Origin: Parcubacteria group bacterium GW2011_GWA2_48_9
GTDB taxonomy: Bacteria; Patescibacteriota; Patescibacteriia; UBA10025
DNA: 33,127 nucleotides
Reading direction: 5' to 3'
Assembly: GCA_001003705.1 (NCBI GenBank)
Contig: LCPQ01000003.1
Coordinates: 1-33,127 of the forward strand
Part shown: positions 3,921 through 31,226 of the stretch, piece by piece
Layout: every line of letters begins with the position of its first letter
Position numbering within the stretch: the first letter of the stretch is position 1
Position numbers and translations under genes: made by a program
The notes under the pieces: model-generated
What the model was told of the DNA's origin: nothing
What the model saw: the letters and a program-made list of their open reading frames with translations, nothing else
Databases searched by the model: none

Positions 3921-3947
3921 ATATACTACGGTGAAAAAAGTGTTCTT

Positions 3948-4028: not shown

Positions 4029-4037
4029 TTATGCACT
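4029..4037 (+). promoter_or_regulatory. Possible DnaA box upstream of dnaA
   Basis: TTATGCACT matches the relaxed DnaA box TTATNCACA at eight of nine positions. A poorer relative (CTTTCCACA, 4007-4015, two mismatches to TTATCCACA) lies 14 bases upstream. They sit between the divergent rpmH and dnaA promoters and could mediate autoregulation of dnaA by DnaA. Confidence 0.4.
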
Positions 4038-4076
4038 TATAATCCAAAATACGGTATTCGGGGTGTGCGCTGGGTA

Positions 4077-4085
4077 TGGTATAGT
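4077..4085 (+). promoter_or_regulatory. Candidate extended -10 promoter of dnaA
   Basis: TGG directly before TATAGT forms an extended -10 on the plus strand. The -35 region (near TTCGGG, 4057-4062) is poor, as is common with extended -10 promoters. The leader to ATG 4124 would be about 32 bases. A second option is TATAAT at 4038-4043, which also lacks a good -35. Confidence 0.4.
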
Positions 4086-4123
4086 CAGTACTACCGTTTA
4101 AATGTTTCGGACCGTCTTCTTTT

Positions 4124-12773: not shown

Positions 12774-12782
12774 AGTATGATG

Positions 12783-15190: not shown

Positions 15191-16569
15191 CTTTTTGTGA
15201 TTTCATGCTCTTTTTCTTTTAACTCACCAATGCGGTCCCGTAGTTGGGCAGCGCGTTCGTATTCTTTCGTTTGTGCTGCTGTCTCCATTTGGGTAGTCAA
15301 ATTCTGTATCATGCCATCGAACTCCTTTTTAGGAATATACATTGCCTCTTTGGTGATGCGTTGCGTTACGTCCTCATCAGATGATTTGCTTCTGTCGTCT
15401 ACTTTACCTGTCCGTTGCCAGTCGAAGCTTGTGTACAGGATGTCGCGGTACAGCTTCTCTGCTGCATCACGGTCTTTTTGGGTGGCACTAGGAGAAGCTA
15501 GTACGACATCACGAAGTTCTTTCGCGCCCGCTTCTATCATTTCTATGCTCCACCAGGGTTGGGCTGATGCCCACCAGTACTGGTCGGAGTGCAGCGACCT
15601 ATCGAGTGCAATGCGAATTTTTTTATACTTTGGGTGTGACGGTTTAATTTTTTCCACTTGCTGCAAGGCTAAGTTAGTGAGACGCCATTGCATGCGCTGA
15701 ATTTCATTGTCAGGATCATCCCACCTTGCGTATGGCGTATTATTTTCAATATCCCGCATCATGAGTGCCCAGCTTGAGGGTCGGGGAGCCACTTGCTTTG
15801 TTCCCGGAAACAGCTTTGGCAAATCGGAGATGCACACAGGCGTCAGGTCGGGTACTTCATAGAGGTCAAAGAGGAGATGTTCGAGACCCGGCCGATGGTG
15901 GCCAAATGTTTCGCCGTCCATGGCGGTAATGAGATACTCGTGTTTTTTTACTCTATCGCCAAGTAAGCGAACTAACATGGGTCCACTGAACACGCTCATC
16001 CCGACTTCAGCCGAGAGAATGCGGAAACTTGTGTCCCTCTCTCTGAAGTAGACACGCATGCCCTCGACTCCTTTTATGGTGTATGTATTTGCCCAGTCAA
16101 TCGCATGCAGGGTGCCGTTGTAGGCGAGTTCATCAAGGATGAGCCACTCGAACCCCATGCGTCGCGCGACTTTAGCCACTTTATCGGCATACGCCATCTC
16201 AGGAGGGAAAAACCCCCGTGGGGCAAACGCATCACCGAAATATTTTTTATTTGTTTCAGTATTAAGTTCAATTTGCCGTTGGATTTCCTTCTCGGGCATC
16301 AACGGAAGAAACGGATGGTATTTGGCACTTCCCGTAAATTCTATCTGTTTCCGTTCTGCGAGCGTTCGGAGATCACGAATGACATCTTCACACCCGTGCT
16401 GTTCAAGAAGTTCTGTCAACACAGCGTTAACATTTAACGTAAGTTTTGCTCGCGGGTGAGCCAAGAGGCCTTTCGTCAGTTTCCGGTAACTCTCATTAGC
16501 GATTTTCTTAATCCAATAAGCTTTCTGTGTCGGTGGTTGATAAATGTGCAAAAAATTGGCCCAGTACAT
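15187..16569 (-). CDS. GH57-family glucan hydrolase/transferase with C-terminal UVR motif (copy 1)
   Basis: A 460-residue protein. Residues 1 to about 400 are a GH57-type barrel: FLHIYQPP (6-13), KQIEFTGSAKYHPFLP (74-89), GFFPPEMAY with the probable nucleophile Glu124, and ITAMDGETFGHH with the probable acid/base Asp218. GH57 includes alpha-amylases, 4-alpha-glucanotransferases and branching enzymes; the exact activity is unknown. The last 40 residues (MIQNLTTQMETAAQTKEYER, then AAQLRDRIGELKEKE) match the UVR motif of UvrB, UvrC and McsA, a helical hairpin for protein contacts. Copy 2, directly upstream, has no such tail. The stop overlaps the kinase-fold gene start (ATGA) and the gene starts 11 bases after copy 2. 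Confidence 0.88.
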   Translation of the reverse strand: MYWANFLHIYQPPTQKAYWIKKIANESYRKLTKGLLAHPRAKLTLNVNAVLTELLEQHGCEDVIRDLRTLAERKQIEFTGSAKYHPFLPLMPEKEIQRQIELNTETNKKYFGDAFAPRGFFPPEMAYADKVAKVARRMGFEWLILDELAYNGTLHAIDWANTYTIKGVEGMRVYFRERDTSFRILSAEVGMSVFSGPMLVRLLGDRVKKHEYLITAMDGETFGHHRPGLEHLLFDLYEVPDLTPVCISDLPKLFPGTKQVAPRPSSWALMMRDIENNTPYARWDDPDNEIQRMQWRLTNLALQQVEKIKPSHPKYKKIRIALDRSLHSDQYWWASAQPWWSIEMIEAGAKELRDVVLASPSATQKDRDAAEKLYRDILYTSFDWQRTGKVDDRSKSSDEDVTQRITKEAMYIPKKEFDGMIQNLTTQMETAAQTKEYERAAQLRDRIGELKEKEHEITKR

Positions 16570-16580
16570 AGGTGTTAAAT

Positions 16581-17804
16581 TTAAATTTTTTTATTCGCCA
16601 TCCAAGGCGCTAACGGCATTGCCTGCATGAACGTATCACGCATGCGTCGAGCAACACCTTCCCGATGCCATGCATGTGCTGTAGTGCGGATAGCATCGAC
16701 TAATAGATTGACACTGTTTTGTAAGTCGTCTGGGAGCACAAGTAACGCTCCAACCTTTTTAAGTAATTCGGCGCGGCTTATGACCATATCGATATCCCAC
16801 CATGGATGGGCTGATGCCCACCAGAATTGGTCACTGGCAATTGCGGTATCAAACAAAGATTCAGCTTCTCGAACGCGCGTAGTACCCTGAGCTTGGCTAC
16901 GTTCAATCAACTCCGCCACTCTCTCTACCAGCTGCCATTGCAATGTGTGGAGTGCATTATCAGGGTGTTTCCATAAGCCGTAAGATATTCCTCGTTCTAT
17001 CTCGTTTTCCTCTGATGACCAGCTGGATGGTAGTGGTTGGCAAACTTCAGTCTCATTAAGTGCCTCGAGATATTCACTTACGGTACACGTTTGGACACGC
17101 TGGTCCGTCACCAGCTGTTTCCACAAGGGGAGTAATTCTTTCCGATGATGTCCTAGGTTTTCACCATCCATGGCTGTAATGAGATATGACGATGATCGAT
17201 CGTCGCGCTTCACCTCGTTCCAAAATGCATCGGGCGAGGCCTCCTGTGCTACAAATGAGAGATAGTTTGAAAGATGCCTATTTCTAAAGACAACGGTCAT
17301 GCCATTCTCTGTGCGGTACTGTCTATTGAAAGCAACTTTTCCCAAATTCCCGTTGTACGCTATTTCATCGATAATCATCCAATGAAAGCCTGAGTTATGA
17401 ATGACACTCTCGGTTTCAGGGCTGTAGCACATTTCAGGGGGGAAGAACCCACGAGGATGATAAGCTGATCCAAATATCTTGATACATGTAGCCTCATGTT
17501 TTCTAAGCTGGCGCACTACATATGGCGCTGCAATCAACGGCAGGATTGCATGGGCATACGAGGTTCCGACAAGTTCAACCTGTCCAGAATGCGCTAGCGC
17601 ACCTATATCGTGCAGGAGGATATCATGACCAGAATCGATCAGTTGTTCGACCAGGATACCGGGTATATTGATCGTTACCTTCACTTCCGGGTGTGACCGC
17701 AAGAATTCCACCACTGGCTGGTAACTTTCTGTAACAACGCGCTCGATAATGTCGCGGCGTTGATACGGCGGTTGGTAAATGTGTAAAAAGTTTACCCATT
17801 TCAT
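16581..17804 (-). CDS. GH57-family glucan hydrolase/transferase (copy 2)
   Basis: A 407-residue GH57-type protein, a paralogue of the neighbouring copy 1 and collinear with it: FLHIYQPPYQ (6-15), GQVELVGTSYAHAILP (74-89), GFFPPEMCY with probable nucleophile Glu124, and LITAMDGENLGHH with probable acid/base Asp213. Both copies also share IDE(I/L)AYNG and a late D-Q-(F/Y)-WWASA-(H/Q)-PWW segment. It ends near residue 407 without the UVR tail. No signal peptide is visible, so it should act on intracellular alpha-glucan. Its ATG overlaps the stop of glgA copy 2 as ATGA, which suggests coupled expression of this synthase-GH57 pair. Confidence 0.88.
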   Translation of the reverse strand: MKWVNFLHIYQPPYQRRDIIERVVTESYQPVVEFLRSHPEVKVTINIPGILVEQLIDSGHDILLHDIGALAHSGQVELVGTSYAHAILPLIAAPYVVRQLRKHEATCIKIFGSAYHPRGFFPPEMCYSPETESVIHNSGFHWMIIDEIAYNGNLGKVAFNRQYRTENGMTVVFRNRHLSNYLSFVAQEASPDAFWNEVKRDDRSSSYLITAMDGENLGHHRKELLPLWKQLVTDQRVQTCTVSEYLEALNETEVCQPLPSSWSSEENEIERGISYGLWKHPDNALHTLQWQLVERVAELIERSQAQGTTRVREAESLFDTAIASDQFWWASAHPWWDIDMVISRAELLKKVGALLVLPDDLQNSVNLLVDAIRTTAHAWHREGVARRMRDTFMQAMPLAPWMANKKI

Positions 17805-19285
17805 ACATGAGAAGATAGTGGGTAGGTAATGGGTGTTTTTCGAAGCGCAATGCTATACAGGCTCACGTATTTTTTTGCCGGCAATTCCCACGAGTATGAT
17901 TCCTGCATGGCTTGTTGTATCAATGTATGCCAAGCAGACTTATATTTGAAAGTTTCTAGCGCCCGCGAGAGCGCTATCAAGAAGTCACCCTCCGTCCACG
18001 CACGGAATACGAAGCCAGTTCCTCTGCCAGTTCGCGGATTGAAATTTGTAATTGTATCTGAAAGTCCTCCCGTTTCATGCACAATAGGTATCGAACCATA
18101 CCGCATACTGATCAACTGAGAGATCCCGCATGGTTCCCACCTGGATGGCATCAGGAAAAGATCCGATCCTGCATACACTTTTGAAGCCATCTCTTCCGTA
18201 AATGGAGTCATAATGCCGACCTTACGGGGGTGCGTTCGGGCTATTTGCTTGAAAAATGCGATATAATCCCGTCTACCTGAACCGACTACGACAATCTGCA
18301 AATGTTGTCTGAGCAACACGTCGATTGTCTGCATGATGAGTGCAAAACCTTTTTGCTCGCTTAAACGGTTTACTACCCCAATAAGCGGGATATCTTCTTT
18401 TTGCTCAAAGCCTATTTCTTTCTGGAGCGAAAGCTTATTTTTCACCTTTTTCTCAATAGAACTCCAGTCGTATTTGTATTTAATATTTTGGTCGAATGCT
18501 GGGTTATAAACAGTGTAATCAACGCCATTGATAATACCGTACAGATCTTTTTCTCGCCTGGATAGTTCATTTTCGAGCCCGAGACCAAATTCAGGAGTCA
18601 AGATTTCTTCAGCGTAACGGACACTAACAGTATTTATAACATCTGCATATCTAATCGCTCGTTTCGTAAAGTTCATGTGAGCGATGTTTGTAACTGATGT
18701 AGGAGGGAGCCCCTCTCCGTCATCAATTCGCGAAGGTGGTACTTTCCACCATTCGCCAGCGGATTGGAAAGCAAGATTATGTATAGTAAAAAGTGTACGG
18801 GTATTTTTCAGTGTCGGGTACTGTTTTCTACGAAACGCTAATATGTTTGGAACCGCTCCCGCCTGCCAATCATGGCAATGTATGAGGTGCGGCTTAAGAT
18901 TGAGGGCATCCGTCACTTTTAACGATGCCAGCGCAAAAAACAAAAAACGAAGGCTATCGTCAGTATACTCATAAATGCGTGAACGATTGCCGAAAAATTG
19001 CGGAATGTCCAAAAAGAAGACTTTGAAATTTTTGGAAAGCTGAAGTTTTAAAGCACTTGCAGTATATTTTCTTTTTCCGTAGGTAACAGTAAACCGGGGA
19101 GTCGCGCGTTTAAGTTTTAACCCCTGTTTTTTAATAAATCCATATAACGGCGTCATGATGCTGACGTCGTGATGAAGTGCTGCAATAGCCCGCGGAAGGC
19201 CCTTCCCAACGTCTCCCAGTCCCCCCGTTTTTGAATATGGCGCTACTTCTGACGATACACTCACAACTCGTAACGTCCGTGGCAT
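17801..19285 (-). CDS. glgA: Glycogen/starch synthase, GT5 family (copy 2)
   Basis: A 494-residue GlgA-type synthase. It has the donor-binding segment SKTGGLGDVGKGLPRAI (Lys19), FLDIPQFFGNRSRIYEYTDD, LIHCHDWQAG, GIINGVDYTVYNPAFD and the GT-B end signature EPCGISQLISMRYG with PIVHETGGLSDTI. It differs from copy 1 throughout while keeping all catalytic landmarks, so both are probably active and the duplication is old. Two synthases with different roles (chain start versus extension, or ADP- versus UDP-glucose use) are known in other bacteria, but which applies here is not visible. It starts 3 bases after the GH15 gene and its stop overlaps GH57 copy 2. Confidence 0.93.
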   Translation of the reverse strand: MPRTLRVVSVSSEVAPYSKTGGLGDVGKGLPRAIAALHHDVSIMTPLYGFIKKQGLKLKRATPRFTVTYGKRKYTASALKLQLSKNFKVFFLDIPQFFGNRSRIYEYTDDSLRFLFFALASLKVTDALNLKPHLIHCHDWQAGAVPNILAFRRKQYPTLKNTRTLFTIHNLAFQSAGEWWKVPPSRIDDGEGLPPTSVTNIAHMNFTKRAIRYADVINTVSVRYAEEILTPEFGLGLENELSRREKDLYGIINGVDYTVYNPAFDQNIKYKYDWSSIEKKVKNKLSLQKEIGFEQKEDIPLIGVVNRLSEQKGFALIMQTIDVLLRQHLQIVVVGSGRRDYIAFFKQIARTHPRKVGIMTPFTEEMASKVYAGSDLFLMPSRWEPCGISQLISMRYGSIPIVHETGGLSDTITNFNPRTGRGTGFVFRAWTEGDFLIALSRALETFKYKSAWHTLIQQAMQESYSWELPAKKYVSLYSIALRKTPITYPLSSHV

Positions 19286-19288
19286 ATA

Positions 19289-20374
19289 TTAATCAAGATA
19301 TCCTAGTTCTTTTGCAGCAATCACGAAGAGAGCATGACTCCACACGAGTGGGTAGATGCCTATACGGAAATCCTCGAAAAACTGCTCTGGAAGAAAACCA
19401 TTGAATTTTTCTGCGTGCGACAGGACCCACTCGAAATACTCGTGAGCTTTTTTAGTATTTCCGCACCGATGCCAATATATTGCCATCATACAGTTGAGAA
19501 GTGGCCATGCCCCTCCACCTTCTTGCGCCGAACCCTCACTGTCAAAGTAGTCGAACTCAAATCGATGTACGCCACCTCGTATAACAAGTTTCTTTTCGAT
19601 CATGGCGACTGTGTTTATTATACGTTTGTCGGTAGGTTCACAGATAGCAAAGGGCCACGCAAGTCCGATAAGAGAGGCGTCAACGTTCGGATCAGATATT
19701 TTACCCTTATTTCTTACGAAGTAACCTTTCGACTCATCATAGGCAGCGTTAATTACTTGCATCATCTGCATAGCGGATTCTTTCCACAATGGATTATGGA
19801 ATGACTCATTTGCGCACAGAAGACCTCGTGCACACGCGGCCAGTGAATATGTAAAGACATTTTCAAATCTCGCAGAGGTTGATCGATGCGATTCTTCCCA
19901 AATATCCGATGTCGGAATGGAAAAAAATGAACCATTCCACACTTTTACCAGTCCATTGGCAAGCCGTTCGATAAGTGGATGGTAGCTTTGTGGGGTGGCC
20001 GGACTATGTCGGCAGTGGTGGTCTATTGCCCAGAGGAGTGTACCAGTCTGGTCGGGCATGAAGACCTTTCCCATTGTCGCTATACGTCCGTTTGTCGAAT
20101 AGTTTGAGTAGAGGAGACCCTCCTCCTCGAAATCTTCTGGACGGTTCTCCATCCAGCGAAAAAAAGGTTCTTGAATTTTTAATCCGAGAATATCAGCAGC
20201 TACACATATATATGCTGCATCGCGGATCCACACATACCGGTAGTCTGAAGCATGCTTCGGTACGTAGGGTTTATCAGTGTTTGCACCTACGATAGCACCG
20301 TTTTCAACCGCGCTGTCCATAATGACTTCGCGTGAGGCTTCAATGACCCGTTGAATACTTTTAGTTAGTGTCAT
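19289..20374 (-). CDS. GH15-family glucoamylase-like hydrolase, catalytic domain only
   Basis: From ATG 20374 the protein is 361 residues, almost all an (alpha/alpha)6 barrel of the GH15 type: YRYVWIRDAAY (45-55, substrate-site W-x-RDA), IWEESH with the probable acid Glu (159-161 region), and NGFLPEQFFED with the probable base Glu330. GH15 glucoamylases remove glucose from non-reducing ends of alpha-glucans. Prokaryotic members are often above 600 residues with an N-terminal beta-sandwich, missing here. No signal peptide is seen, so the substrate should be internal. I chose ATG 20374 because it overlaps the ruvC stop as ATGA; the frame also runs back to a TTG at 20401. It could act on another glucoside (trehalose is a known GH15 substrate). 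Confidence 0.85.
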   Translation of the reverse strand: MTLTKSIQRVIEASREVIMDSAVENGAIVGANTDKPYVPKHASDYRYVWIRDAAYICVAADILGLKIQEPFFRWMENRPEDFEEEGLLYSNYSTNGRIATMGKVFMPDQTGTLLWAIDHHCRHSPATPQSYHPLIERLANGLVKVWNGSFFSIPTSDIWEESHRSTSARFENVFTYSLAACARGLLCANESFHNPLWKESAMQMMQVINAAYDESKGYFVRNKGKISDPNVDASLIGLAWPFAICEPTDKRIINTVAMIEKKLVIRGGVHRFEFDYFDSEGSAQEGGGAWPLLNCMMAIYWHRCGNTKKAHEYFEWVLSHAEKFNGFLPEQFFEDFRIGIYPLVWSHALFVIAAKELGYLD

Positions 20375-20871
20375 AGGTGTTGTTGTGTGTCGAATGCCCA
20401 ACAGAGTGCAACAGCAAGGGCATCGGCTGCATCGTCTGGCGTTGGTAGTTCTTTCATGGAAAGATGCAGGCGCACCATTTTTTGTACTTGACGCTTATCC
20501 GCTTTTCCATAACCGACCATTGTTTGCTTCACTTGCAGCGGAGAGTATTCCGCGATAGTTTTTATTGTCGATCCCAGTGCGAGGAGTATGACCCCGCGCG
20601 CCTGCCCTACCGCAAAGGCAGTTTTTACATTTTTTGCGAAAAAAATTTGTTCAACAGCTGCAACCTGAGGATGATAAGCACGAATGAGTCGGTTCACCCC
20701 GGAAAATATTTTTTTAAGCCGCCGGGGGACGCTTTCTACAGGTTTAGTGGTAATCACTCCATATTCTACACACATGACAGTTTTTCCAACTTTTTTTACT
20801 ACACCATACCCAGTAGAAGCGATGCCTGGGTCAATTCCAAGGATCGTGACAGCACTTTTAGACATCTGCAT
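20371..20871 (-). CDS. ruvC: Holliday junction resolvase RuvC
   Basis: A 166-residue RuvC with the RNase H-like acidic site: Asp14 in LGIDPGIASTGYG, Glu74 in AVEQIFFAKN, and the pair in PDDAADALAVAL (Asp147, Asp150). RuvC cuts Holliday junctions made in recombination, with RuvAB. In many bacteria yebC-ruvC-ruvA-ruvB lie together; here yebC and ruvC are together but the next gene is a GH15 hydrolase, and ruvA/ruvB are not in the window. The start at 20871 overlaps yebC by 14 bases; an alternative ATG at 20865 (MSKSAVTI) overlaps by 8. Length is normal. Confidence 0.95.
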   Translation of the reverse strand: MQMSKSAVTILGIDPGIASTGYGVVKKVGKTVMCVEYGVITTKPVESVPRRLKKIFSGVNRLIRAYHPQVAAVEQIFFAKNVKTAFAVGQARGVILLALGSTIKTIAEYSPLQVKQTMVGYGKADKRQVQKMVRLHLSMKELPTPDDAADALAVALCWAFDTQQHL

Positions 20872-21795: not shown

Positions 21796-22869
21796 ATGAA
21801 CATCCTTGATGACATGAAAAAAATGCGATATTTGGACCGGCAAAATGTGCTCGGATCAATTAACGCACTTCCTGACCAGGTAACGCATGCGTGGCGAGAA
21901 AGTCGACGGGTACGATTCCCTTCTAAATACAGCCGTGCAAAAAAAATAATTGTTGTCGGAATGGGCGGGTCAATGATTGGCGCTCATCTTATCGAATCAG
22001 TATTTGCGAGTGATCTTAAGGTGCCGCTGGTTCGTGTTGGAGATTACCGACTTCCGATATGGGCTGGTCGCGACACATTAGTTGTTCTTTCAAGCTACTC
22101 GGGGGCTACCGAGGAGGTGCTTGCTGTCGCCAAGGAAGCATTTAAGCGCGGATGTCTCGTCACTGGGTTAACTGTTGGTACTTCACTTGGACGAACGCTA
22201 CACTCACACAGAGTACCGTATTATAAAATTATTCCATCGTATAATCCTTCAAATCAACCACGAATGGCGACAGGATATATGGTAGCTGGACTCTTGGGAT
22301 TGCTTTCGCGGTGCAGCTTGGTCCACATATCTGAATACGATATGCGGAAGGTAGTTGAATTGTTGGCACATAGTCACCGTACATGGGGTGTAGACGTTCC
22401 GATGAAGCGAAATCAAGCAAAGCAGCTTGCGAAAAAACTCTTGGGTCGAATGATTTTTTTTGCAGCGGCCGAACATCTTGTGGGGAATGCCCATATAGCT
22501 GCCAACCAGGTTAATGAAAATGCTAAGACGTTTTCTGCTTACTTTCCGATTCCAGAATTGAACCATCATTTACTTGAGGCGTTACGTTTTCCACGGACTA
22601 ATCGTCGCGAGCTCATAGGTGTATTTTTTAATTCGCAACAGTACCATCAGCGCAATCAACGACGCATAACAGCAACCAAAAGAATACTGGCCCGACAGCG
22701 TATCAACTCGATCATTATTCGGGCCAGTGGTCCGACGAGGTTTGCCGAGGCATTGCGTATTGCACATTTTGGGGCATACGCGGGGTTCTATCTTGCCATG
22801 CTCTACCGTATCAATCCGGCACCCATCATATGGGTGGATGCGTTTAAGAAGATCATGGCAAAAAGGTAG
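21796..22869 (+). CDS. Bifunctional phosphoglucose/phosphomannose isomerase (SIS family)
   Basis: A 357-residue protein of the PGI/PMI type, distinct from classical Pgi. It has GMGGSMIGAHL (55-65), the sugar-phosphate loop LSSYSGATEE (98-107), QPRMATGY (154-161), NENAKTF (240-246) and IPELNHHLLEAL (252-263), matching the P-E-L-N-H-N segment of the family. It interconverts glucose-6-phosphate or mannose-6-phosphate with fructose-6-phosphate in the cytoplasm. Its position, divergent from the alpha-glucan operon and ahead of the glycan cluster, fits a role in moving hexose phosphates between the store, glycolysis and mannose-type sugar donors. The membrane protein gene follows after 38 bases. 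Confidence 0.9.
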   Translation: MNILDDMKKMRYLDRQNVLGSINALPDQVTHAWRESRRVRFPSKYSRAKKIIVVGMGGSMIGAHLIESVFASDLKVPLVRVGDYRLPIWAGRDTLVVLSSYSGATEEVLAVAKEAFKRGCLVTGLTVGTSLGRTLHSHRVPYYKIIPSYNPSNQPRMATGYMVAGLLGLLSRCSLVHISEYDMRKVVELLAHSHRTWGVDVPMKRNQAKQLAKKLLGRMIFFAAAEHLVGNAHIAANQVNENAKTFSAYFPIPELNHHLLEALRFPRTNRRELIGVFFNSQQYHQRNQRRITATKRILARQRINSIIIRASGPTRFAEALRIAHFGAYAGFYLAMLYRINPAPIIWVDAFKKIMAKR

Positions 22870-22907: not shown

Positions 22908-24467
22908 ATGAATTTTCCACTTCAAGCGCCTAGCTGGTTGCGTCATCATTCAGTGGCCATCATTGCGCTTGGCATTTTCGCCGTGTCATTTATTTTTCTA
23001 CTGTGGCTACAGGCGGATCCGACATTTGCTGATCCGGACTCTTTTTACCATGCAAAAATGGCGATGGTGCTGCGCGATGAAGGCATTATCCAAACATTCC
23101 CTTGGCTTCAATTCACTTTTTTACGTGATGCGTATACTGACCAGCATTTTCTCTATCATATTTTTCTCATTCCATTCGTAACGATACTCCCTCCTATAGT
23201 CGGTACGAAACTTGTGACGATTCTGCTTGCATCTTCAGTGGTGCTGCTCGTATACTTATTTCTCAACTCTCTCAAAGTGCCATGGGCGTGGGCTTTTGCC
23301 ATGCTCTTGCTGCTTGTGACTCCACTAACTTTCCGTTTAAGTTTGGCTAAAGCGCCGAGTGTTTCACTCCTGTTTCTGATTGGTGGTATCTGGCTGTTAA
23401 TACGGAAAAAATATCTTTGGCTTGGCGTTCTTTCGTTTCTATATGTTTGGTCCTACGGAGGTTTCTTGCTTTTGCTTTTTTCCGCAGGTGTGTGGGTGAG
23501 TATTGGTTTTTTACAGGATATACTCGCTCTTCGACGTATTGCACGGAGGGAGTATCTATTCACCTTTGGTACCGTATTTATTGGCACTACGCTCGGAGTC
23601 ATCGTGAATCCCTTTTTCCCGCAGAATATAGCATTTTTCTGGAATCAGCTCGTCAAAATCGGCATTGTGAATTATCAAGGGGTTATAGGTGTCGGTAATG
23701 AGTGGTATCCGTACAAATTTATAGATTTGGTGTCTAATACGATTTTTCTTTCTATTATAGTGCTCATTGGTGTAGTTGTTTTCGTTGTATTACTAAAACG
23801 TCAAAGTAAAGTTTCGTGGCTGTTTTTAATATTAGCGCTGTTTTTTTTCCTTTTAACACTAAAATCAAAACGCTACGTAGAATACTACGTTCCCTTTGGC
23901 ATGTTATTTGGCGCGACTGCTATAGGACAGGCAGCTTCCCAGCTGGAGATGCGTCAGTTGGCAAGGGATATGTATCGATGGGTGACTCGTAAAAAAGTAC
24001 TCGGGATTGTGGTCGCACTTTATTTCATCGTGACGCTGCCCGGGCTTGCCGTGCGGGATGTGCGTACTACTAAACGCGATTTAGGTGGAGGGTCAAATGT
24101 ATTGCGTTTTTCACAGGCGAGCCACTGGCTTGCAACCAATACTCCCGAAGGTTCGGTCGTTTTCCATTCGAGCTGGGATGAATTTCCGATCCTTTTTTAC
24201 CATAATACCCATAATTATTACATTATTGGGCTTGATCCCACCTTTATGTATGAGTATGACCGTCGATTGTATGCTCTGATGGTCGACATTACCACTGGTA
24301 AGGAAGTTGAAAATCCTGGGAGTGTGCTGCGCGATGAATTCGGTGCTTCATATGCATTTGTTGAGAAAAATCATGATGGCATGAAACGCATTATTGAGAG
24401 TATCTCAGGAGTTGAATTAGTATATTCTGATAATGAAGCGTTCATTTATGACATTCGCACACAATGA
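22908..24467 (+). CDS. GT-C-type membrane glycosyltransferase, STT3/oligosaccharyltransferase-like
   Basis: A 519-residue protein with about a dozen hydrophobic spans (first at 16-34) and a C-terminal globular part from about 385. After span 1 comes ADPDSFYHAKMA (41-52), an acidic motif where GT-C enzymes bind metal or lipid phosphate (STT3-like D-x-D/E-Y/F-x-H). The globular part has HSSWDEFPILFYH (420-432) followed by GLDPTF (441-446), reminiscent of the WWDYG region of STT3/PglB/AglB. Members use polyprenyl-linked sugars and work on the outer face of the membrane. It could be an oligosaccharyltransferase or a single-sugar transferase. It starts the surface-glycan cluster, and its stop overlaps the next gene by four bases (ATGA). 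Confidence 0.65.
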   Translation: MNFPLQAPSWLRHHSVAIIALGIFAVSFIFLLWLQADPTFADPDSFYHAKMAMVLRDEGIIQTFPWLQFTFLRDAYTDQHFLYHIFLIPFVTILPPIVGTKLVTILLASSVVLLVYLFLNSLKVPWAWAFAMLLLLVTPLTFRLSLAKAPSVSLLFLIGGIWLLIRKKYLWLGVLSFLYVWSYGGFLLLLFSAGVWVSIGFLQDILALRRIARREYLFTFGTVFIGTTLGVIVNPFFPQNIAFFWNQLVKIGIVNYQGVIGVGNEWYPYKFIDLVSNTIFLSIIVLIGVVVFVVLLKRQSKVSWLFLILALFFFLLTLKSKRYVEYYVPFGMLFGATAIGQAASQLEMRQLARDMYRWVTRKKVLGIVVALYFIVTLPGLAVRDVRTTKRDLGGGSNVLRFSQASHWLATNTPEGSVVFHSSWDEFPILFYHNTHNYYIIGLDPTFMYEYDRRLYALMVDITTGKEVENPGSVLRDEFGASYAFVEKNHDGMKRIIESISGVELVYSDNEAFIYDIRTQ

Positions 24468-25675
24468 ACCACCAGCGACTCATTGTTACTGCAGTGTGCC
24501 TGGTCATTATTCTTGTTTGGATTGGATTTCTCCATGCGAATCCCTCGTATTCGGTGGATTCTTTATCACCTGTGAGACTCGTGCGAGATACGCATGAAAC
24601 AGAGAATGTGTACTATACTCGCTCGTCGCCTCTTGCTGCTGGTGAGATGCCGTATACCACTGCTCCTCAGGAATATCCCATTCTGAGCGTATTATATATT
24701 AGTATGCCACGCCTTTTTACAGACTACCCTGAAACATTTACCGCTATTTTATCAGCTATCAATGCTGCCATACTCGTATGTGCTGTTGTGGTTTCATCAC
24801 ACCTGCTTTCTATTTTGGGAGTTTCATATCACCGACTGTGGCTTTTTTTGTTTCCCGCAACTCTCTATTTTACATTCAATCGGTTTGATATTCTTATGGT
24901 GGGTGTCATTCTCGCCAGCCTCATGTTTCTTTTTCGAGGGAAGTTCTGGTGGGCAATTGTATTCTTGTTGGTTGGATTTTTTATTAAATGGTTTAGCATT
25001 TTTTTGGTGCCAGTGTATTTTCTTTATCAGAGAAACCAGGTATCGCAAGATCAATGGAAGCGGGACATCAAGCTCGGTTGCGTACTTGTATTCGGTTCTT
25101 TAGCAGTTATTACCACCGTGCTATTCGTACTCGCCGGTGAAGAAAGTCTCTATCCTTATCTGTTACATACCCAGCGTGGTATAGAGTATGGAAGCACCTT
25201 TTCTCCGGCATTTGCCTGGTTATTGGTTCATCTCTCTCCCGCCGCTTACCGATATACCCGCGACACCACTGCAGCAGTTTTGTCGACGTTACAGCTTGGA
25301 CTCCCTGTACTCATGCTGATATTTGCTGGGCGGTTTGCACGTTTTGTCAAAACTCGAGAAGACGTACTACGGTGGTCACTCATCGTGATTGCAGTATTTC
25401 TTCTGTTTGCTAAGTTTTATTCGCCACAGTTTGTTCTTTGGTTTTTGCCATTGGCACTCTTATTCAGCAAAACATGGAAGGATGTGCTCCTGCTCGGAAT
25501 CCTCGATGTAGTGCATTATGTTTCATTTCCATTGGTATTTGACGGCTTCGGAGAAGCCTCAAATATGTATGCAGTCGCCGCACTTGTTCGAGGATTGCTC
25601 CTGGCAGTACTTATTTATAGACTCGTGAAGCCATTGTCTATTCGTTGGTTTTCACCTACATTACACAGCGCATGA
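24464..25675 (+). CDS. GT87-like membrane mannosyltransferase family protein
   Basis: A 403-residue protein with about ten hydrophobic spans. Features recalling GT87 (PimE-type, DUF2029) enzymes are an acidic first loop (VDSLSPVRLVRD), EYPILSVLYISMP, FNRFDILMVG (an Asp in an otherwise hydrophobic context), FFIKWFSIFLVP and KFYSPQFVLWFLPL. GT87 enzymes move mannose from polyprenyl-phosphate mannose to lipid acceptors on the outer membrane face. The start overlaps the preceding stop and the end overlaps the next start (ATGA both times), so it is part of a tightly coupled three-gene unit. The exact sugar and acceptor are unknown. Confidence 0.65.
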   Translation: MNHQRLIVTAVCLVIILVWIGFLHANPSYSVDSLSPVRLVRDTHETENVYYTRSSPLAAGEMPYTTAPQEYPILSVLYISMPRLFTDYPETFTAILSAINAAILVCAVVVSSHLLSILGVSYHRLWLFLFPATLYFTFNRFDILMVGVILASLMFLFRGKFWWAIVFLLVGFFIKWFSIFLVPVYFLYQRNQVSQDQWKRDIKLGCVLVFGSLAVITTVLFVLAGEESLYPYLLHTQRGIEYGSTFSPAFAWLLVHLSPAAYRYTRDTTAAVLSTLQLGLPVLMLIFAGRFARFVKTREDVLRWSLIVIAVFLLFAKFYSPQFVLWFLPLALLFSKTWKDVLLLGILDVVHYVSFPLVFDGFGEASNMYAVAALVRGLLLAVLIYRLVKPLSIRWFSPTLHSA

Positions 25676-27198
25676 TTTCAAACCACCGTATTACTCTTAA
25701 AAACAGTATCTGCTTGGTACTTATTCTTATTGTACTTGGCTGGCTCGCGTATCTCATATTCGGCTTTTCATCAACATCTGCGAAGTATGGCATTTTTGGC
25801 GACGAGGGTATTTTCTTAACCGGTGCGCAACGTATACTGAGAGGTGAATTGCCGCACAAGGACTTTTACACCTTATTGCCAACTGCGTCGTATTACCCTC
25901 TTGCATTATTTTTTCGACTTTTTGGCGACAACTATGTGGTTGCGCAGGTTTTTGTGTTTCTTAACGCCGTCGGCATTGGGGGAACCATGTTTTGGCTTGG
26001 ATGGCGACTTCTTCGATGGTGGTCGTCTGTTCCCGCAATAATCTTCCTATTGTTCGTTTTCCCTGCTTGGCCGTATGTTTCCCACCATTGGACGTTCTTA
26101 CTTTTTGCATTGTTATCAACTTGCTGTTGTCTGCAGAAAAACACCGGCTGGCATGTCACAGCGGGTGTGTTTTCTGGACTGTCATTCCTTTTGTTTCCCC
26201 AAAAAGCCCTTTTCACTTTCTTTGCACATATTCTGATATTTTTATTGTTTCGGCCACACGGTCTTCGTTCAGCGGTGTTCACTATTTGCTGGTATCTCGC
26301 CGGTTTGTTGCCCGTCATGCTTATTCACAGCTGGTGGCTTTTTCATACGGGGGTTTGGGCTCTGTATATACAGCAGGTTTTTATTGATTCATTCAAGTAC
26401 TATCCCAACTTTGTCATGCAGGAAATATTTTTTAAATTTAATAATGTCGCTGCGCTCCTTACGCTCGGCATTGTCGGGTTTGGTTTGATGTTTTTCTTCC
26501 GTCGCCATTATACGCCGCTTGTCCTGAAAACATATGTAGCGATTTTCCTTGTGCATATGTCGCTATTGGTTTCCATTTTGTACCATTTAGAACTGTACCA
26601 CGTTCTTCAGGTCATTCCGGCAGCGATTATCTTAATTTTTTTCATCATAGTTTTTTTTGCTCAACGTATACGAGGTATACTCCACACATATTCTTCTATG
26701 GCACTTGCGGCATTTATTATTTCCGCTGTCATTATCTCAGTTTCTGTGCCGTTTACATTGGCGTATGAGTCAAGCTATGGTTTTGGCACCGGATTTACAA
26801 AAAATGTAACTGCTTTTTCGACACCACGCGGAAAGATAGTCTTGAACCACCGTCAAACTCCATATTTTATTGAGGAATACGAAACGGTCAGCAGTCTCGT
26901 CGATACCCAACTTTTAGGGAAATCCATCTTCTTTTTCCCGTATGCACCAGGGTATTACTACTTTCTTAATCTTCGCAATACAACCTCGTTTGATTTCATA
27001 GGTGCCGAAATGATCGCACACGCATATCGTGAACAGATTGCCCAAGAACTGGCCCATGTCGATGTCATTATCCTCCTACCGACAAGCTGGGGGTTTGATC
27101 CACAGGGTGCGTTCATGAAGCTTATTCCAGAGAATTTTTCCTTTCGTCAGGAATTGTTAGAAGGGCGCGTCACCGTGCTTTCGCGAAACTCGTTATGA
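25672..27198 (+). CDS. GT-C-type membrane glycosyltransferase, twin A (508 residues)
   Basis: A polytopic membrane protein with about eleven spans and a C-terminal soluble part from about residue 370. The first outer loop has FGDEGIFLTGAQRILRGELP and then HKDFYTLLPTASYYPLALFF, the layout of GT39/PMT_2-type and ArnT-like enzymes, where the Asp-Glu pair lies near the active site. The soluble part has FFFPYAPGYYYFLNLRNTTS. It is a clear paralogue of the protein at 31552-33078, of identical length and collinear throughout. I use ATG 25672 (overlapping the previous stop as ATGA) in preference to a TTG at 25645. It probably adds a sugar from a polyprenyl-phosphate donor outside the membrane. Confidence 0.7.
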   Translation: MISNHRITLKNSICLVLILIVLGWLAYLIFGFSSTSAKYGIFGDEGIFLTGAQRILRGELPHKDFYTLLPTASYYPLALFFRLFGDNYVVAQVFVFLNAVGIGGTMFWLGWRLLRWWSSVPAIIFLLFVFPAWPYVSHHWTFLLFALLSTCCCLQKNTGWHVTAGVFSGLSFLLFPQKALFTFFAHILIFLLFRPHGLRSAVFTICWYLAGLLPVMLIHSWWLFHTGVWALYIQQVFIDSFKYYPNFVMQEIFFKFNNVAALLTLGIVGFGLMFFFRRHYTPLVLKTYVAIFLVHMSLLVSILYHLELYHVLQVIPAAIILIFFIIVFFAQRIRGILHTYSSMALAAFIISAVIISVSVPFTLAYESSYGFGTGFTKNVTAFSTPRGKIVLNHRQTPYFIEEYETVSSLVDTQLLGKSIFFFPYAPGYYYFLNLRNTTSFDFIGAEMIAHAYREQIAQELAHVDVIILLPTSWGFDPQGAFMKLIPENFSFRQELLEGRVTVLSRNSL

Positions 27199-27241: not shown

Positions 27242-27300
27242 GGTGGAATCAGCATTGGAGCATTCCTGGTAGTTTTACTCAGCTATAAACACTATTGTTC

Positions 27301-28053
27301 ATGGACTCCGCACTTCACGCCTTACTCAATAGACAACAAGAAGATCACTGGTGGTTTGCAGGGAGAAGAAAAATATTTTCTAAGGTGCTGCACAATACCG
27401 TTAAAACTGCTAATAATTCAATACTTGATATTGGGTGCGGTACAGGCGGAATGATCGGCATTCTCAAAGACTTCGGACATACCATAGGCATCGAAGTTAA
27501 TCCCGAGGCGGCTGAATTTGCCCGGGGACGCGGCTATGATAGCGTCATTGTGCATGATGCCAAAACACTACCGTTTGCGGATCAATCCTTCGATATTGTT
27601 ACAGCATTTGATATTATTGAACACATTGAGGATGACCGGCAATTTGTTAACGAAATCATTCGTGTGCTCAAGCCAGGCGGAAAATTTTTTCTATCTACAG
27701 CCGCGTTCAACTTCTTATGGAGCGTCTTTGATGAACGCGCACACCACTATAGACGGTACACCAGAAAGTCACTTGCCGGCATGTTAAATCGTTTTAATGA
27801 TTCCGAAGTATGTTACTACAACACGTTACTTTTTCCTCCCATTGCAGTAATACGGTTATTGCAGAAAGTAATACACAAAAAACAGGATCCCAAGAGTGAA
27901 TTATTCGAACTACGCCAGCCCCCAAAAATATTGAATTACGCATTAAAGTGTATTTTTTCATTTGAAAAGTATATCACTGGTATGCGTATCCCATTCGGAG
28001 TTTCACTTTTTGCGGTATGTAGTAAACCAGGTACGAGTATTGCGTCCCCGTAG
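27301..28053 (+). CDS. Class I SAM-dependent methyltransferase
   Basis: A 250-residue protein with the methyltransferase fold: motif I LDIGCGTGG (about 42-50), an acidic end of strand 2 (IGIEVNPEA), FDIVTAFDIIEHI (motif for strand 4), and VLKPGGKFFLS (post-motif). It belongs to the Methyltransf_11/23 type, which methylates small molecules and, in glycan clusters, sugar hydroxyls or lipid carriers. I use ATG 27301 rather than the TTG six bases upstream. It is preceded by its own promoter and lies 35 bases before the acyltransferase. The substrate is not visible. Confidence 0.85.
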   Translation: MDSALHALLNRQQEDHWWFAGRRKIFSKVLHNTVKTANNSILDIGCGTGGMIGILKDFGHTIGIEVNPEAAEFARGRGYDSVIVHDAKTLPFADQSFDIVTAFDIIEHIEDDRQFVNEIIRVLKPGGKFFLSTAAFNFLWSVFDERAHHYRRYTRKSLAGMLNRFNDSEVCYYNTLLFPPIAVIRLLQKVIHKKQDPKSELFELRQPPKILNYALKCIFSFEKYITGMRIPFGVSLFAVCSKPGTSIASP

Positions 28054-28088: not shown

Positions 28089-28637
28089 ATGAAAGCATTG
28101 CATGAAATTGGTTTTTCGAAAGCCCTGCGCTTCGGTTTCTGGGTCCCTCTCCTTGGTTTATTTTCTCTTGCAGGGTATCCACAGGTACGTATGGTTATTC
28201 TACGCATTTTTGGTGCGCGAATTCGTCGTTCATGCATTATCCATCGTGTAAAGTTTATGAATGCATACCGAAAGGGATTCGGGGGGGTATATGCAGGGGA
28301 AGAGGTCTTTATTGGCGACGAATGTCTACTTGATCTAGCCGAATCGATTACCCTTGAAGACCAGGTAACGCTCGCTGAACGAGTGGTTGTTTTAACGCAC
28401 ATGAACGTGGGGTATAGAGACCACCCACTTCAGAAGTATTTTCCGGCCTTCGCGAAACCAGTGGTGATCAAACAGGGTTCATTTATTGGTGCAAACGTAA
28501 CAATATTACCCGGGGTGACTATTGGACCCCGTTCTTTTGTCGCTGCCGGCAGTGTTGTCACAAAAGACGTTTCGCCAGATGCACTGGTCGGAGGTGTTCC
28601 AGCGCGTCAGATCAGAAATATTTCGACCGCGGCATAA
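28089..28637 (+). CDS. Hexapeptide-repeat acyltransferase (probable O-acetyltransferase)
   Basis: A 182-residue protein with a left-handed beta-helix. Hexapeptide-type turns occur from VYAGEEVFIGDECLLDLAES to QGSFIGANVTILPGVTIGPR and FVAAGSVVTKDVSPDALVGG, ending in GVPARQIR, a near-universal ending of the CysE/LacA/NodL group. The likely catalytic His is in LTHMNVGYRDH. A hydrophobic N-terminal segment (FWVPLLGLFSLAG) suggests membrane association. It probably acetylates a sugar of the surface glycan. Six bases separate it from the GT2 gene. Confidence 0.85.
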   Translation: MKALHEIGFSKALRFGFWVPLLGLFSLAGYPQVRMVILRIFGARIRRSCIIHRVKFMNAYRKGFGGVYAGEEVFIGDECLLDLAESITLEDQVTLAERVVVLTHMNVGYRDHPLQKYFPAFAKPVVIKQGSFIGANVTILPGVTIGPRSFVAAGSVVTKDVSPDALVGGVPARQIRNISTAA

Positions 28638-28643: not shown

Positions 28644-29393
28644 ATGAACGCCCAGCCTACCTCACCGTATCAGTTTACCCTGGTGTTGCCATTGTACAAT
28701 GAAGGCGGAGGGCTTGCGATACAGCTGGGCTATATCTACCGCACGCTGTGCAATGGAGCGTTTCGGTTTCAGATGATACTGATAGATGATTGCAGTACAG
28801 ATGAAACCACACATATTGCCCATGCGTTCGCCCAGGGAAAAGATTCGGTTTTTGTTGTTCGACATGAGAGGAACCAAGGAAGAGGGGCGACGGTGATGGA
28901 TGGGTTCATGCGCGCGACCAGCGATGTGGTGGGGTTCATGGACGTTGACTGCGAAGTGTCCCCCGTATACCTACTGGAGTTCGTTTCCGATCTTTTGGAA
29001 GGTACGACTGATATTATCACCGGCCATCGTATTTATAAATTTTCAGTTTCGCGAATGCCACGAACTATTGCGAGTATTGGATACCGAATGATCGTACGTG
29101 CATTACTGGATATCAAATTCAAAGATACCGAAACCGGGTACAAATTGTTTCGCAGGACCTCATTTCTTCGTATCGCGCCGTATCTTAAAGAGAAGGGATG
29201 GTTTTGGGATACCGAAGTTATGGCAATAGCCAATCTTGCGAAATTGCGCGTCGAAGAACGCCCCGTGCTTTTCATACGCAACGTTGCGAAGCGATCCAGC
29301 GTGCATTTGGTTTCCGACACACTAACGTATTTTAAATCGCTCATGCGATTTCGCGTGCGGCGTAAATCGCTGGTAAAGGAACTTGCACTATGA
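28644..29393 (+). CDS. Family 2 glycosyltransferase, dolichyl/polyprenyl-phosphate mannose synthase-like
   Basis: A 249-residue GT-A enzyme: FTLVLPLYNEGGG (11-23), LIDDCSTDET (46-55), RHERNQGRGATVMDGF (73-88), the D-x-D at 100-102 (MDVDCE) and KDTETGYKLFRR, the acceptor-side segment. This pattern is close to polyprenyl-phosphate mannose/glucose synthases without the C-terminal membrane spans. Such enzymes make the lipid-linked sugar donors that GT-C enzymes consume, which fits the surrounding GT-C genes. The stop overlaps the aminotransferase start (ATGA). Confidence 0.85.
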   Translation: MNAQPTSPYQFTLVLPLYNEGGGLAIQLGYIYRTLCNGAFRFQMILIDDCSTDETTHIAHAFAQGKDSVFVVRHERNQGRGATVMDGFMRATSDVVGFMDVDCEVSPVYLLEFVSDLLEGTTDIITGHRIYKFSVSRMPRTIASIGYRMIVRALLDIKFKDTETGYKLFRRTSFLRIAPYLKEKGWFWDTEVMAIANLAKLRVEERPVLFIRNVAKRSSVHLVSDTLTYFKSLMRFRVRRKSLVKELAL

Positions 29394-30586
29394 AACAGGT
29401 ACCTTTGTTGCCCCACTTTATCCCTTTTGGAGCACCGAAATTTAGCCGTCATACAGAAACTGAGGTTATTCGCACCCTGCGAAGCGGGTGGATAGGTACT
29501 GGGCCGAAAGTGCTTGAATTTGAGCGCTTATTTGCCCATTATGTCCATGCCCCTTTTGCGGTAGCACTTTCGTCATGTACAGCGGGACTGCACTTGAGTT
29601 TGGTAGTTTCGGGCGTTGGCCGCGGTGACGAAGTGATTACCTCACCCCTGACATTTGCCGCGACTGCGAACGCGATTCTCACTTCAGGCGCCACCGTAAA
29701 GTTTGCCGATGTTGATCTGGCTACATACACTCTCTCTCCGCGCGCGGCTCAGCGGGCAATTACTAAGAAAACTCGTGCTATTATTCCCGTTCATTTTGCA
29801 GGATTGCCGGCTGATATGAAATCATTTGAAGCATTAGCCCGGCGCTATCGTCTTCATCTCATCGAAGACGCAGCTCACGCACTCGGCGCTCGTTCCCATG
29901 GCGCCATGATTGGAGCAACGGGCAATCTAACAAGTTTTAGCTTTTACCCAAACAAAAATATTACCTCATGCGATGGTGGCATGCTCACATTCGCTGATCG
30001 GCGTTTTGAACGGACATTGAAAACTCTCCGGCATCAGGGATTGGATGTTGATGCATGGAAACGGTTCCATCGAAAGTCACTGCAAACGAGTCTGGCGCTA
30101 ATGCATGGGTACAAATACACCATGAATGACTTGCAGGCTATTATCGGCATTGAACAGTTGAAACATGCGGAAGCTTGGCAAAAAACGCGAGAGCGCTACG
30201 CGGCATATTACGATAGCATTTTCACAGCAATTCCTGGAGTATTTTTCCAATACCGCCCGCTCGATAAAGATGAAAACCGCCATGCACTGTATTTATATAC
30301 TTTGCGGCTAGAGAGAAAGTTTTTTGGGCACGCGCGCGACCAGGTCGTGCAAACCCTTCTTCGCAAAAACATTGGGGCGGGTGTCCATTACATCCCTTTG
30401 CATTTGCACCCGGCGTTCCGGCACCAAAAGTACCGTCGAGGTGATTTCCCAATCGCAGAAAAAATTGGTGATGAAATTTTTACAATTCCCTTGACACCCC
30501 ATCTTTCTTTTTCAGTAATTCGTGCCATTGCTCGTGTGACAAAAGCAGTGCTACTCTCGTTTCTCCGTCGGCGGACAACACCGTGA
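29390..30586 (+). CDS. DegT/DnrJ/EryC1-family sugar aminotransferase
   Basis: A 398-residue PLP enzyme. Landmarks are GSGWIGTGP-like text (RSGWIGTGPKVLEFER), SSCTAGLHLS (61-70), PLTFAATANAI, LIEDAAHALGA (Asp160 contacts the pyridine ring) and SFYPNKNITSCDGGM with the PLP Lys at 189. The C-terminal half has GYKYTMNDLQAIIG and GVHYIPLHLHPAF, as in ArnB/PseC-type enzymes. It forms amino sugars on nucleotide-linked keto sugars. It sits in the glycan cluster between GT2 and a methyltransferase, supporting an amino-sugar component of the surface polymer. Confidence 0.92.
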   Translation: MKQVPLLPHFIPFGAPKFSRHTETEVIRTLRSGWIGTGPKVLEFERLFAHYVHAPFAVALSSCTAGLHLSLVVSGVGRGDEVITSPLTFAATANAILTSGATVKFADVDLATYTLSPRAAQRAITKKTRAIIPVHFAGLPADMKSFEALARRYRLHLIEDAAHALGARSHGAMIGATGNLTSFSFYPNKNITSCDGGMLTFADRRFERTLKTLRHQGLDVDAWKRFHRKSLQTSLALMHGYKYTMNDLQAIIGIEQLKHAEAWQKTRERYAAYYDSIFTAIPGVFFQYRPLDKDENRHALYLYTLRLERKFFGHARDQVVQTLLRKNIGAGVHYIPLHLHPAFRHQKYRRGDFPIAEKIGDEIFTIPLTPHLSFSVIRAIARVTKAVLLSFLRRRTTP

Positions 30587-30587: not shown

Positions 30588-31226
30588 ATGGATCCATCTC
30601 TCACACATCTGCTGTCTATATCATCGAAAACTGGCTATGCGAGGGTCTATTTTACGTTGCGTTTTCTACTTTTTCGTAAGCGATTCTCACTTCTTTTTGC
30701 GCACCTACCTTCCCGCGGCAGGATCGTAGATGTCGGGTGTGGTTATGGGCTCACTGCTCACTTGCTTTCTTTGCAGTATCCAAATGCTAGTATAATCGGC
30801 ATAGATACAAATGCCCGGCGGATACGGACTGCGAAGACAAGTGCACACGGACTTTCCCAACTCTCGTTCGAACTCGCTGATGCTAATACGTTTTCATTCG
30901 AGCAAAGTGATGCAATACTGTTAATCGACGTTTTGCACCATATCCCCTATGTGCAACATCGGCCCCTTTTTAGGCGGCTGGCGGCGGCGCTAGGGCACAA
31001 TGGAGTATTGCTCATTGCTGATATTGCTATCCAGCCGCGCTGGAAATACTGGTGCGCCTATTTAATCGATGTGGTGCTGTATCCGTTCAGTATACGGTGC
31101 CAGTTTTACTCATCTCAAAGTATACGAAGCATGCTCGCAGAGAGCGGGTGGAGCGTACAGAGCGAGGTCAGGACTGATGCGGGAAGCATTTTTCCGACAA
31201 TTATGTACCTTGCTAAACCGTTGTAG
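30588..31226 (+). CDS. Class I SAM-dependent methyltransferase
   Basis: A 212-residue methyltransferase: IVDVGCGYGLTAHLL (46-60, motif I), IIGIDTNARRI (end of strand 2), FEQSDAILLIDVLHHI (strand 4) and HNGVLLIADI (strand 5). It is unlike the other methyltransferase of the cluster outside these motifs. The gene begins one base after the aminotransferase stop and ends at a 7-base-pair hairpin. The substrate is not visible; a sugar or lipid-linked intermediate is likely from context. Confidence 0.8.
   Translation: MDPSLTHLLSISSKTGYARVYFTLRFLLFRKRFSLLFAHLPSRGRIVDVGCGYGLTAHLLSLQYPNASIIGIDTNARRIRTAKTSAHGLSQLSFELADANTFSFEQSDAILLIDVLHHIPYVQHRPLFRRLAAALGHNGVLLIADIAIQPRWKYWCAYLIDVVLYPFSIRCQFYSSQSIRSMLAESGWSVQSEVRTDAGSIFPTIMYLAKPL

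Follow-up and report, generated by a model that had tools for sequence, protein, structure and literature searches.

A conserved STT3-like membrane glycosyltransferase of Patescibacteria that lacks the second metal-binding motif of oligosaccharyltransferases

When a membrane protein carries some of the sequence features of the oligosaccharyltransferases (OSTs), the question arises as to whether it belongs with those enzymes or with the single-sugar glycosyltransferases of the GT-C fold. It is raised here by an open reading frame (ORF) at 22908–24467 on the + strand of contig LCPQ01000003.1 from Parcubacteria group bacterium GW2011_GWA2_48_9 (assembly GCA_001003705.1; genome 1.26 Mb in 44 contigs); the entire contig, of 33127 bases, is the window analysed here. 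The ORF, of 519 aa from an ATG start, encodes a GT-C membrane glycosyltransferase with a membrane part (residues 1–393) and an extracytoplasmic domain (residues ~395–519). The original prediction, made from the sequence alone, saw in this protein an STT3-like enzyme heading a surface-glycan cluster, which might build a lipid-linked glycan for transfer to proteins. The answer reached here is that the gene is a real, conserved gene and that the prediction is upheld in part: its product represents a Patescibacteria family that is a widespread new variant of the STT3 type, although on the features tested it is STT3-like and does not qualify as an OST in the strict sense.

The first line of evidence is the predicted fold. 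An AlphaFold model was built with alignment A2, which has 82 rows (the window protein and 81 near-full-length proteins, of 84 found, from the best 80 loci), and reached a pLDDT of 95.8 and a pTM of 0.93; a single-sequence model (pLDDT 48.9) was not used. Foldseek against the PDB returned 22 matches at E ≤ 0.001. OST chains account for 17 of them (ranks 1–15, 17 and 18), the remainder being CeDPY19 (rank 16, E 3e-8), ALG12, AftD twice and ALG9, while a search of BFVD gave no match to the model at the same threshold. In the VIA comparison, rows 1–17 are all STT3, AglB or PglB (Z 24.5–29.4), with 440–491 residues aligned including the C-terminal domain: STT3A gives Z 29.4 over 486 residues, AglB 27.6 over 474 and PglB 25.0 over 440, the last two at rmsd 3.5. 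Taken together, the 19 OST rows span Z 20.6–29.4 and rmsd 3.5–4.3, and 18 of them lie above ArnT (Z 20.8 and 19.3, rmsd 5.4 and 5.3); Pmt4 reaches Z 24.4 but over 337 residues of the membrane half only, and DPY19 (Z 20.5 over 464) and AftA (Z 19.6, rmsd 5.5) also appear, it being remembered that a GT-C family missing from the VIA list is not thereby excluded. The model, then, has an STT3-like fold with an external C-terminal domain and finds its closest structural counterparts among the OSTs. A comparison with PglB and AglB had been proposed at the outset as the check, a best match to single-sugar GT-C enzymes being what would have counted against the idea; instead OSTs head both comparisons.

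The second line of evidence concerns individual residues. The active site of PglB is described as comprising D56 in external loop 1 (EL1), R147, D154 and D156 in EL2, E319 in EL5 and R375 in EL6 (PMC6801728), the metal ligands of AglB as D47, D161 and H163 (PMC8342417), and the WWDYG motif as contacting the +2 Ser/Thr of the acceptor (PMC8342417, PMC7226087). Correspondences to the OSTs, other than that of R322/P329, were read by eye. Identical in 82/82 rows of A2 are D44, Y47, H48, R143, K148, E265, R322, P329, W423, G441 and D443. The EL1 motif D42-P-D44-S-F-Y-H48 (23031–23051, + strand, as are all the motifs given here) is the counterpart of the first DxD (or xxD), with PglB D56 falling at D44, and D42 is Asp in 77 rows, Glu in 4 and Cys in 1. 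EL2 keeps R143 (PglB R147) together with K148 (23334–23363), and the EL5-type motif V262-G-x-E265-W-Y (23691–23708) keeps the Glu of TIXE/SVSE, although T/S-x-x has become [VI]-G-x. The EL6 Arg and the Pro of the next helix are present as R322-x6-P329 (23871–23894), with the same +7 spacing as PglB R375-x6-P382, to which hhalign aligns them (E 0.0028 over 83 columns, though at a probability of only 10.9). In the C-terminal domain, [S/D]-W423-D424-[D/E]-F-P (24171–24188) is a partial counterpart of WWDYG, and G-L-D443-P-T-F (24228–24245) lies at the VDN/DGG segment of STT3/PglB. The segments ADPDSFYH and SSWDEF...GLDPTF, which the original prediction had likened to OST motifs, are present as quoted, and their placing in the first loop and the soluble domain fits the model. 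The motifs are taken to be more than chance likenesses on the strength of their conservation in A2 and not of a chance calculation.

Other OST features are missing or altered. OSTs are described as metal-dependent, the metal being held by residues from two DxD motifs (PMC8342417, PMC10154233, PMC7226087), and 13 transmembrane (TM) helices form part of their definition (PMC8342417, PMC6801728). Here the second DxD (R-x6-D-x-D/E/H in EL2) is absent: positions 149–155 hold neither an acidic residue nor a His in any of the 82 rows, and residues 150–152, which occupy the place of PglB D154-x-D156, include no acid. Half of WWDYG is also gone, since W423 is invariant and D424 is kept in 73/82 rows, while the first Trp has become Asp in 63, Ser in 11, Asn in 6, Met in 1 and Gln in 1, and the YG is replaced, mostly by [DE]F. 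An inspection by eye of the model's DSSP string, without a membrane predictor, gives a count of 11 TM helices (9–34, 96–121, 127–144, 150–165, 169–182, 187–207, 213–233, 271–294, 301–319, 321–345 and 363–393), which would put the loop bearing E265 between TM7 and TM8 rather than between TM9 and TM10 as in the 13-TM OSTs. On the features tested we call the protein STT3-like and not a strict OST; of the likeness first proposed, the EL1 acidic motif, the Trp-Asp of WWDYG and the position of GLDPTF stand, together with the fold.

Of the sequence searches, neither phmmer with the window protein nor hmmsearch with alignment A1 found any match in the PDB, solved OSTs included, and PF02516 matched neither the window protein, nor any of 30 members at E ≤ 0.01, nor anything in the same genome. 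TIGR04154 did match the window protein (35 bits over profile positions 194–520) and 8/30 members, but across the phylum this profile finds matches in 117/379 genomes, many of those listed being short (profile positions ~95–150), while PF02516 finds them in 50/379, 16 over its cut-off. Such scores were dropped as proof of STT3 identity because they are unspecific in the phylum, the 14 proteins inspected being other GT-Cs by eye. Loci L111–L122, L137 and L142, with weak matches of this kind on what appear by eye to be other GT-Cs, amount to an annotation trap for “STT3” labels.

It could nevertheless be argued that this is a true metal-dependent N-OST, transferring a preassembled lipid-linked oligosaccharide en bloc, in which the metal ligands have been re-formed, for example from D42, D44, D78 and H80. 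The fold and VIA Z-scores are in keeping with this, D42, D78, H80 and H84 are all invariant or nearly so in A2 and could be ligands, and the genome encodes a phosphoglycosyl transferase and three Wzx-type proteins. These last belong, however, to common families, found in 9/14 and 13/14 control genomes respectively, and with the second DxD missing from every row, WWDYG halved, two helices fewer by our count and no PF02516 match, we regard this explanation as unlikely.

The gene is far from being an isolated curiosity. A relative occurs in 33 of 57 near genomes (including that of the window) and in 28/379 sampled across the phylum, some of these being weak, and a match at E ≤ 0.001 in 182/352 genomes of the class (at least four of them weak, E 1e-6 to 6e-4). 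When 84,980 species genomes were scanned with a pattern, 213 candidates emerged, 158 of them relatives, of which the best 80 were kept; the named lineages among these are all Patescibacteria (Kerfeld-, Buchanan-, Falkow-, Uhr-, Komeili- and Kuenenbacteria among others). A scan of viral contigs found nothing. Two side observations may be recorded: the family profile finds a second, weak match in the window's own genome (contig C7, 3736–4089; E 1.1e-4), and genomes of family f24 (e.g. G360, G530 and G632) carry versions of the enzyme that form a divergent sub-branch (E ~1e-37 to 1e-117). Loss of the canonical metal motif might suggest a degenerate, non-catalytic OST relative serving as a pseudo-enzyme or scaffold, but D44, R143, K148, E265 and R322 are kept in 82/82 sequences, in relatives down to 32% identity with the window protein, and this idea appears very improbable.

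What the computations show is the fold, the presence of residues equivalent to those of OSTs (in EL1, EL5, EL6 and the C-terminal domain, and the Arg of EL2) and that the second DxD has been lost. The mechanism that we tentatively favour, at rather less than even likelihood, is that of an STT3-fold GT-C acting as a metal-independent transferase that depends on a polyprenyl-phosphate sugar and has an exported protein as its acceptor. The active site would lie on the external side of the membrane; the sugar would come on a polyprenyl-phosphate carrier supplied by a GT2 synthase; K148, R143 and R322 may hold the donor phosphate in place of a divalent metal; D44 and E265 may activate the acceptor; and the EL5-type loop and C-terminal domain would hold the exported protein between them. 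Foremost among candidates for this acceptor is the short external tail of pilins of the type IV secretion system (T4SS) type, which are VirB2-like.

As regards the donor, neighbourhoods were counted over 81 loci (the window and L031–L110) using mechanically called ORFs of at least 110 aa. Of these, 58 contain YebC, 54 RuvC, 40 a phosphoglucose/phosphomannose isomerase (PGI/PMI) and 42 a member of a broad GT2 group. A following ORF exists in 77 loci; in 24 of them it is a GT2 on the same strand, and 21 of these 24 proteins carry the motif [FY][MT]DxDL, which we take to be that of Alg5-type polyprenyl-phosphate glucose synthases. For one of them, a stretch of 130 residues gives a match to the structure of DPMS (8e-13), and the GT2 of the window itself (28644–29393, + strand) matches DPMS (7.5e-9), ArnC (1.9e-8) and sll0501 (1.8e-5), the last presumably GtrB, and is thus related to polyprenyl-phosphate sugar synthases. 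The GT2 group is mixed, the classical DxDxxHxP being present in 19/64 members. These neighbours suggest polyprenyl-phosphate monosaccharides rather than the en bloc lipid-linked glycan of the original prediction, although, as the genome has one GtrA/DPMS_TM protein alongside its phosphoglycosyl transferase and Wzx-type proteins, both kinds of donor could be made. There is precedent for such chemistry without metal, in GT-Cs that work with Dol-P or Pol-P sugars: DPY19 is described as having no metal ligands, using Dol-P-Man and being unaffected by EDTA (PMC10154233), and PimE as having no DxD and being likewise unaffected (PMC12041525).

As regards the acceptor, the pilus system had been named as a possible target. 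The window offers no support, since no pilus gene was found in it (Pfam on the 27 window proteins scanned, PF18895 on the contig), but the T4SS-type pilins of relatives give suggestive support. Small two-helix T4SS_pilin-like (PF18895) proteins, forming community c5, occur in the flanks of 31/81 loci (152 in total, often in arrays), and in L053, L072, L082 and L107 a tandem pair of STT3-like genes is directly followed by such an array. That c5 might represent spurious ORFs over rRNA was considered and rejected: Rfam found nothing in L072, and the proteins are T4SS_pilin-like, a PF18895 match (G045:C13:21081-21257) falling within a c5 ORF at 9534–9917 of L072. A PF18895 match lies within ~20 kb of the gene in at least 21 of the 33 genomes that have the enzyme (STT3L+), a raw count in which synteny is inherited. 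In the discovery set, a contrast noticed by inspection and not blind, N-x-S/T is found in the last 15 residues of 20/98 pilins from STT3L+ genomes as against 1/83 from genomes lacking the enzyme (STT3L-), the mirror motif giving 9 and 4. Counted by region, the figures are 12/20 and 1/18 (the STT3L- set comprised 20 regions from 18 genomes, of which 18 regions held pilins), and the single exception, L195, comes from a 79% complete genome (G040). STT3L+ tails such as LVNATS, LYNATR and ILNAT may be compared with related STT3L- tails such as LVTATTG, LVTATQD and LMSATSA, though T/S tails (e.g. LVTATT, LYSATT) also occur in the STT3L+ set. The top-scoring pilin of the window organism among the stretches examined (contig C26) ends in FVVQTTTNVTN.

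The contrast was followed up in 109 other genomes of the class (53 STT3L+ and 56 STT3L-), with a pilin model from which the tails had been cut off. These genomes were chosen, outside the first 57, from the best pilin matches, so that high-scoring pilins are favoured; four listed genomes were excluded, G400 and G569 for the weakness of their match to the enzyme and G471 and G686 because all their listed frames were long, the second pilin region of G664 was used because the first had an inner stop, ORFs over 320 aa and matches stopping short of the model end were dropped, and enzyme and family labels were entered manually. The best pilin has a tail sequon in 19/53 STT3L+ and 10/56 STT3L- genomes (Fisher p = 0.050; mirror motif 4/53 and 4/56), while any pilin of the region has one in 35/53 and 17/56 (p = 2.5e-4, relatedness ignored; mirror 8/53 and 15/56). 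Counted per pilin, the sequon is found in 43/279 as against 23/317, and its mirror in 10/279 and 18/317. We regard the association between enzyme and tail sequon as suggestive. A count excluding family f24 (19/37 vs 9/50) was an after-the-fact choice and is not relied upon. A wider count of N-x-S/T against the mirror motif showed no clear excess in a sample of 400 ORFs of the window's own genome (soluble 268/251, secreted-like 200/178); the 152 c5 pilins give 122 and 91, and for the remaining ORFs at these loci the counts are 633/634 (soluble), 112/146 (secreted-like) and 476/505 (polytopic).

A number of points weigh against the mechanism favoured above. In the VIA list two OST rows rank lower, among those of PMT and ArnT (PglB 3rce, Z 23.4; apo AglB 3wak, Z 20.6). 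No more than 24 of 77 loci have a GT2 immediately after the gene, and this GT2 could serve other GT-C neighbours (GT87, DUF2079, PMT_2) instead. AglB of A. fulgidus is described as using a metal in spite of its monophosphate donor (PMC8342417), so that donor type and metal loss need not coincide. T4SS pilins are present in 57/57 relatives, with or without the enzyme. The best-pilin count is borderline and ignores relatedness, and tests at family level are weak (permutation p = 0.046; Mann–Whitney p = 0.10 for any pilin and 0.76 for the best). In family f24 all 16 tested STT3L+ genomes have T/S/E/K-A-T, not N-A-T, in the best-pilin tail, although for any pilin the sequon is found in 11/16 genomes with the enzyme and 2/6 without. 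Conversely, N-A-T is seen in STT3L- genomes of f53 and other families, and the best pilin has a tail sequon in 10/56 STT3L- genomes; phylum and class profile scans, to which the searches were limited, found no OST in these genomes that would explain it, and two GT-Cs of f53 look PMT-like by eye. Finally, there is very little distance between the sequons and the predicted membrane helix. The most specific form of the proposal, in which these ultra-small Patescibacteria would carry out bacterial N-glycosylation, a metal-independent 11-TM STT3-like enzyme moving a polyprenyl-phosphate sugar to N-x-S/T in the external C-terminal tail of VirB2/T4SS-type pilins, is in our view doubtful as it stands; if true, the target would be appendages that the cells may use on their hosts.

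That the acceptor is instead a lipid or a polysaccharide is a serious rival idea. Under this explanation, which we consider a real possibility, the protein would be a single-sugar GT-C of the ArnT, PimE or AftA sort, decorating a surface glycolipid or polysaccharide, and its likeness to OSTs would reflect shared ancestry only. The 11 TM helices of our count and the lost second DxD would both suit it, as would the Glu loop at TM7/TM8 in the model, given that the donor arch is described as lying at TM7–8 in PimE, ALG6 and ArnT and at TM9–10 in PglB (PMC12041525); the gene also lies among other GT-Cs and genes for a sugar aminotransferase and acyl- and methyltransferases. On the other hand, ArnT and AftA match the model less well, with rmsd 5.3–5.5 as against 3.5–4.3 for the OSTs; the residues conserved at the EL5 Glu (82/82), the Trp (82/82) and the Asp (73/82) are those where OSTs bind peptide; and the pilin-tail association also tells against it.

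The surroundings of the gene may now be described, all features being on the + strand unless stated. Upstream lies a bifunctional phosphoglucose/phosphomannose isomerase (21796–22869), beyond which are YebC and RuvC genes on the opposite strand. Downstream, a GT87-like GT-C glycosyltransferase (24464–25675) overlaps the STT3-like gene by 4 bases and is followed by a GT-C-like membrane protein of no Pfam family (25645–27198, start codon uncertain), a methyltransferase assigned by Pfam (27295–28053), a WcaF-like hexapeptide acyltransferase (28089–28637, profile matches), the GT2 already discussed, a PseC/ArnB-like sugar aminotransferase of the DegT/DnrJ/EryC1 type (29390–30586, profile matches), a second Pfam methyltransferase (30588–31226) and another GT-C-like membrane protein without a Pfam family (31552–33078). 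This last and its counterpart at 25645–27198, which bracket the sugar-modification genes, are clear paralogues by eye, sharing YxIFGDEGIFLTGA...FPAWPxVSHHW. The left two thirds of the window hold DnaA/DnaN, a PBP1-like protein, TyrRS and, at 11823–20401, a glycogen-type cluster (two GlgA-like, two GH57, one GH15-like and one APH-like protein), one of whose GH57 proteins has a UvrB/UvrC (UVR) motif at its end. YidC, DnaA and DnaN stand together at 2380–6826, so that the left end of the window may be near a replication origin. In two of the related loci the STT3-like gene is directly preceded by a very long ORF of group c53, of 1616 aa in L042 and 1285 aa in L092.

Full-text searches of the open-licence part of PubMed Central found no paper on such an enzyme in Patescibacteria; the nearest deals with type IV pili of Saccharibacteria and predicts O-linked glycosylation of the pilin (PMC12206443). 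An OST fold that keeps the acceptor-side residues without the second metal motif, and is widespread, would offer a natural test of the limits of OST chemistry; the family would also be a lead to protein glycosylation in Patescibacteria, with the pilin tail as a testable candidate acceptor.

It remains to set the protein beside the systems already known, for which we take DPY19 to be GT98, PMT/Pmt4 GT39 and ArnT GT83. STT3, AglB and PglB (GT66, PF02516) are its best structural matches, and with them it shares the EL1 Asp, EL2 Arg, EL5 Glu and EL6 Arg-x6-Pro, and the C-terminal Trp-Asp; it differs in having no second DxD, only the Trp-Asp of WWDYG, 11 TM helices by our count and a C-terminal domain of ~125 residues. 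ArnT shares the GT-C fold and a polyprenyl-phosphate sugar donor, but even its higher Z of 20.8 is below that of 18 OST rows and above only one. DPY19 has an STT3-like module, lacks metal ligands and has an external C-terminal domain, and PMT, described as having 11 TM helices (PMC6801728), shares the GT-C membrane half (Z 22.9–24.4) and the number of helices that we count. A protein mannosyltransferase of either type, adding a C- or O-linked single sugar to exported proteins, would fit with CeDPY19 being the first non-OST Foldseek match, with its VIA alignment over 464 residues, with its metal-independent use of Dol-P-Man (PMC10154233) and with the PGI/PMI gene directly upstream in 36/81 loci. 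Yet the DPY19 signatures, ExE in EL1 and Rx6LRE in EL2 (PMC6801728), are not kept, the family having DxD and R-x6-[mostly P/N/Q/S/T] (Rx6PSV-like) in their place, and its Z is lower; and PMT aligns over 332–346 residues, ending at residue 394 and leaving the C-terminal domain uncovered, while no PMT Pfam family matches the window protein. This explanation thus seems to us improbable, and as identities for the protein we place DPY19, PMT and ArnT below the OSTs on the comparisons just given.

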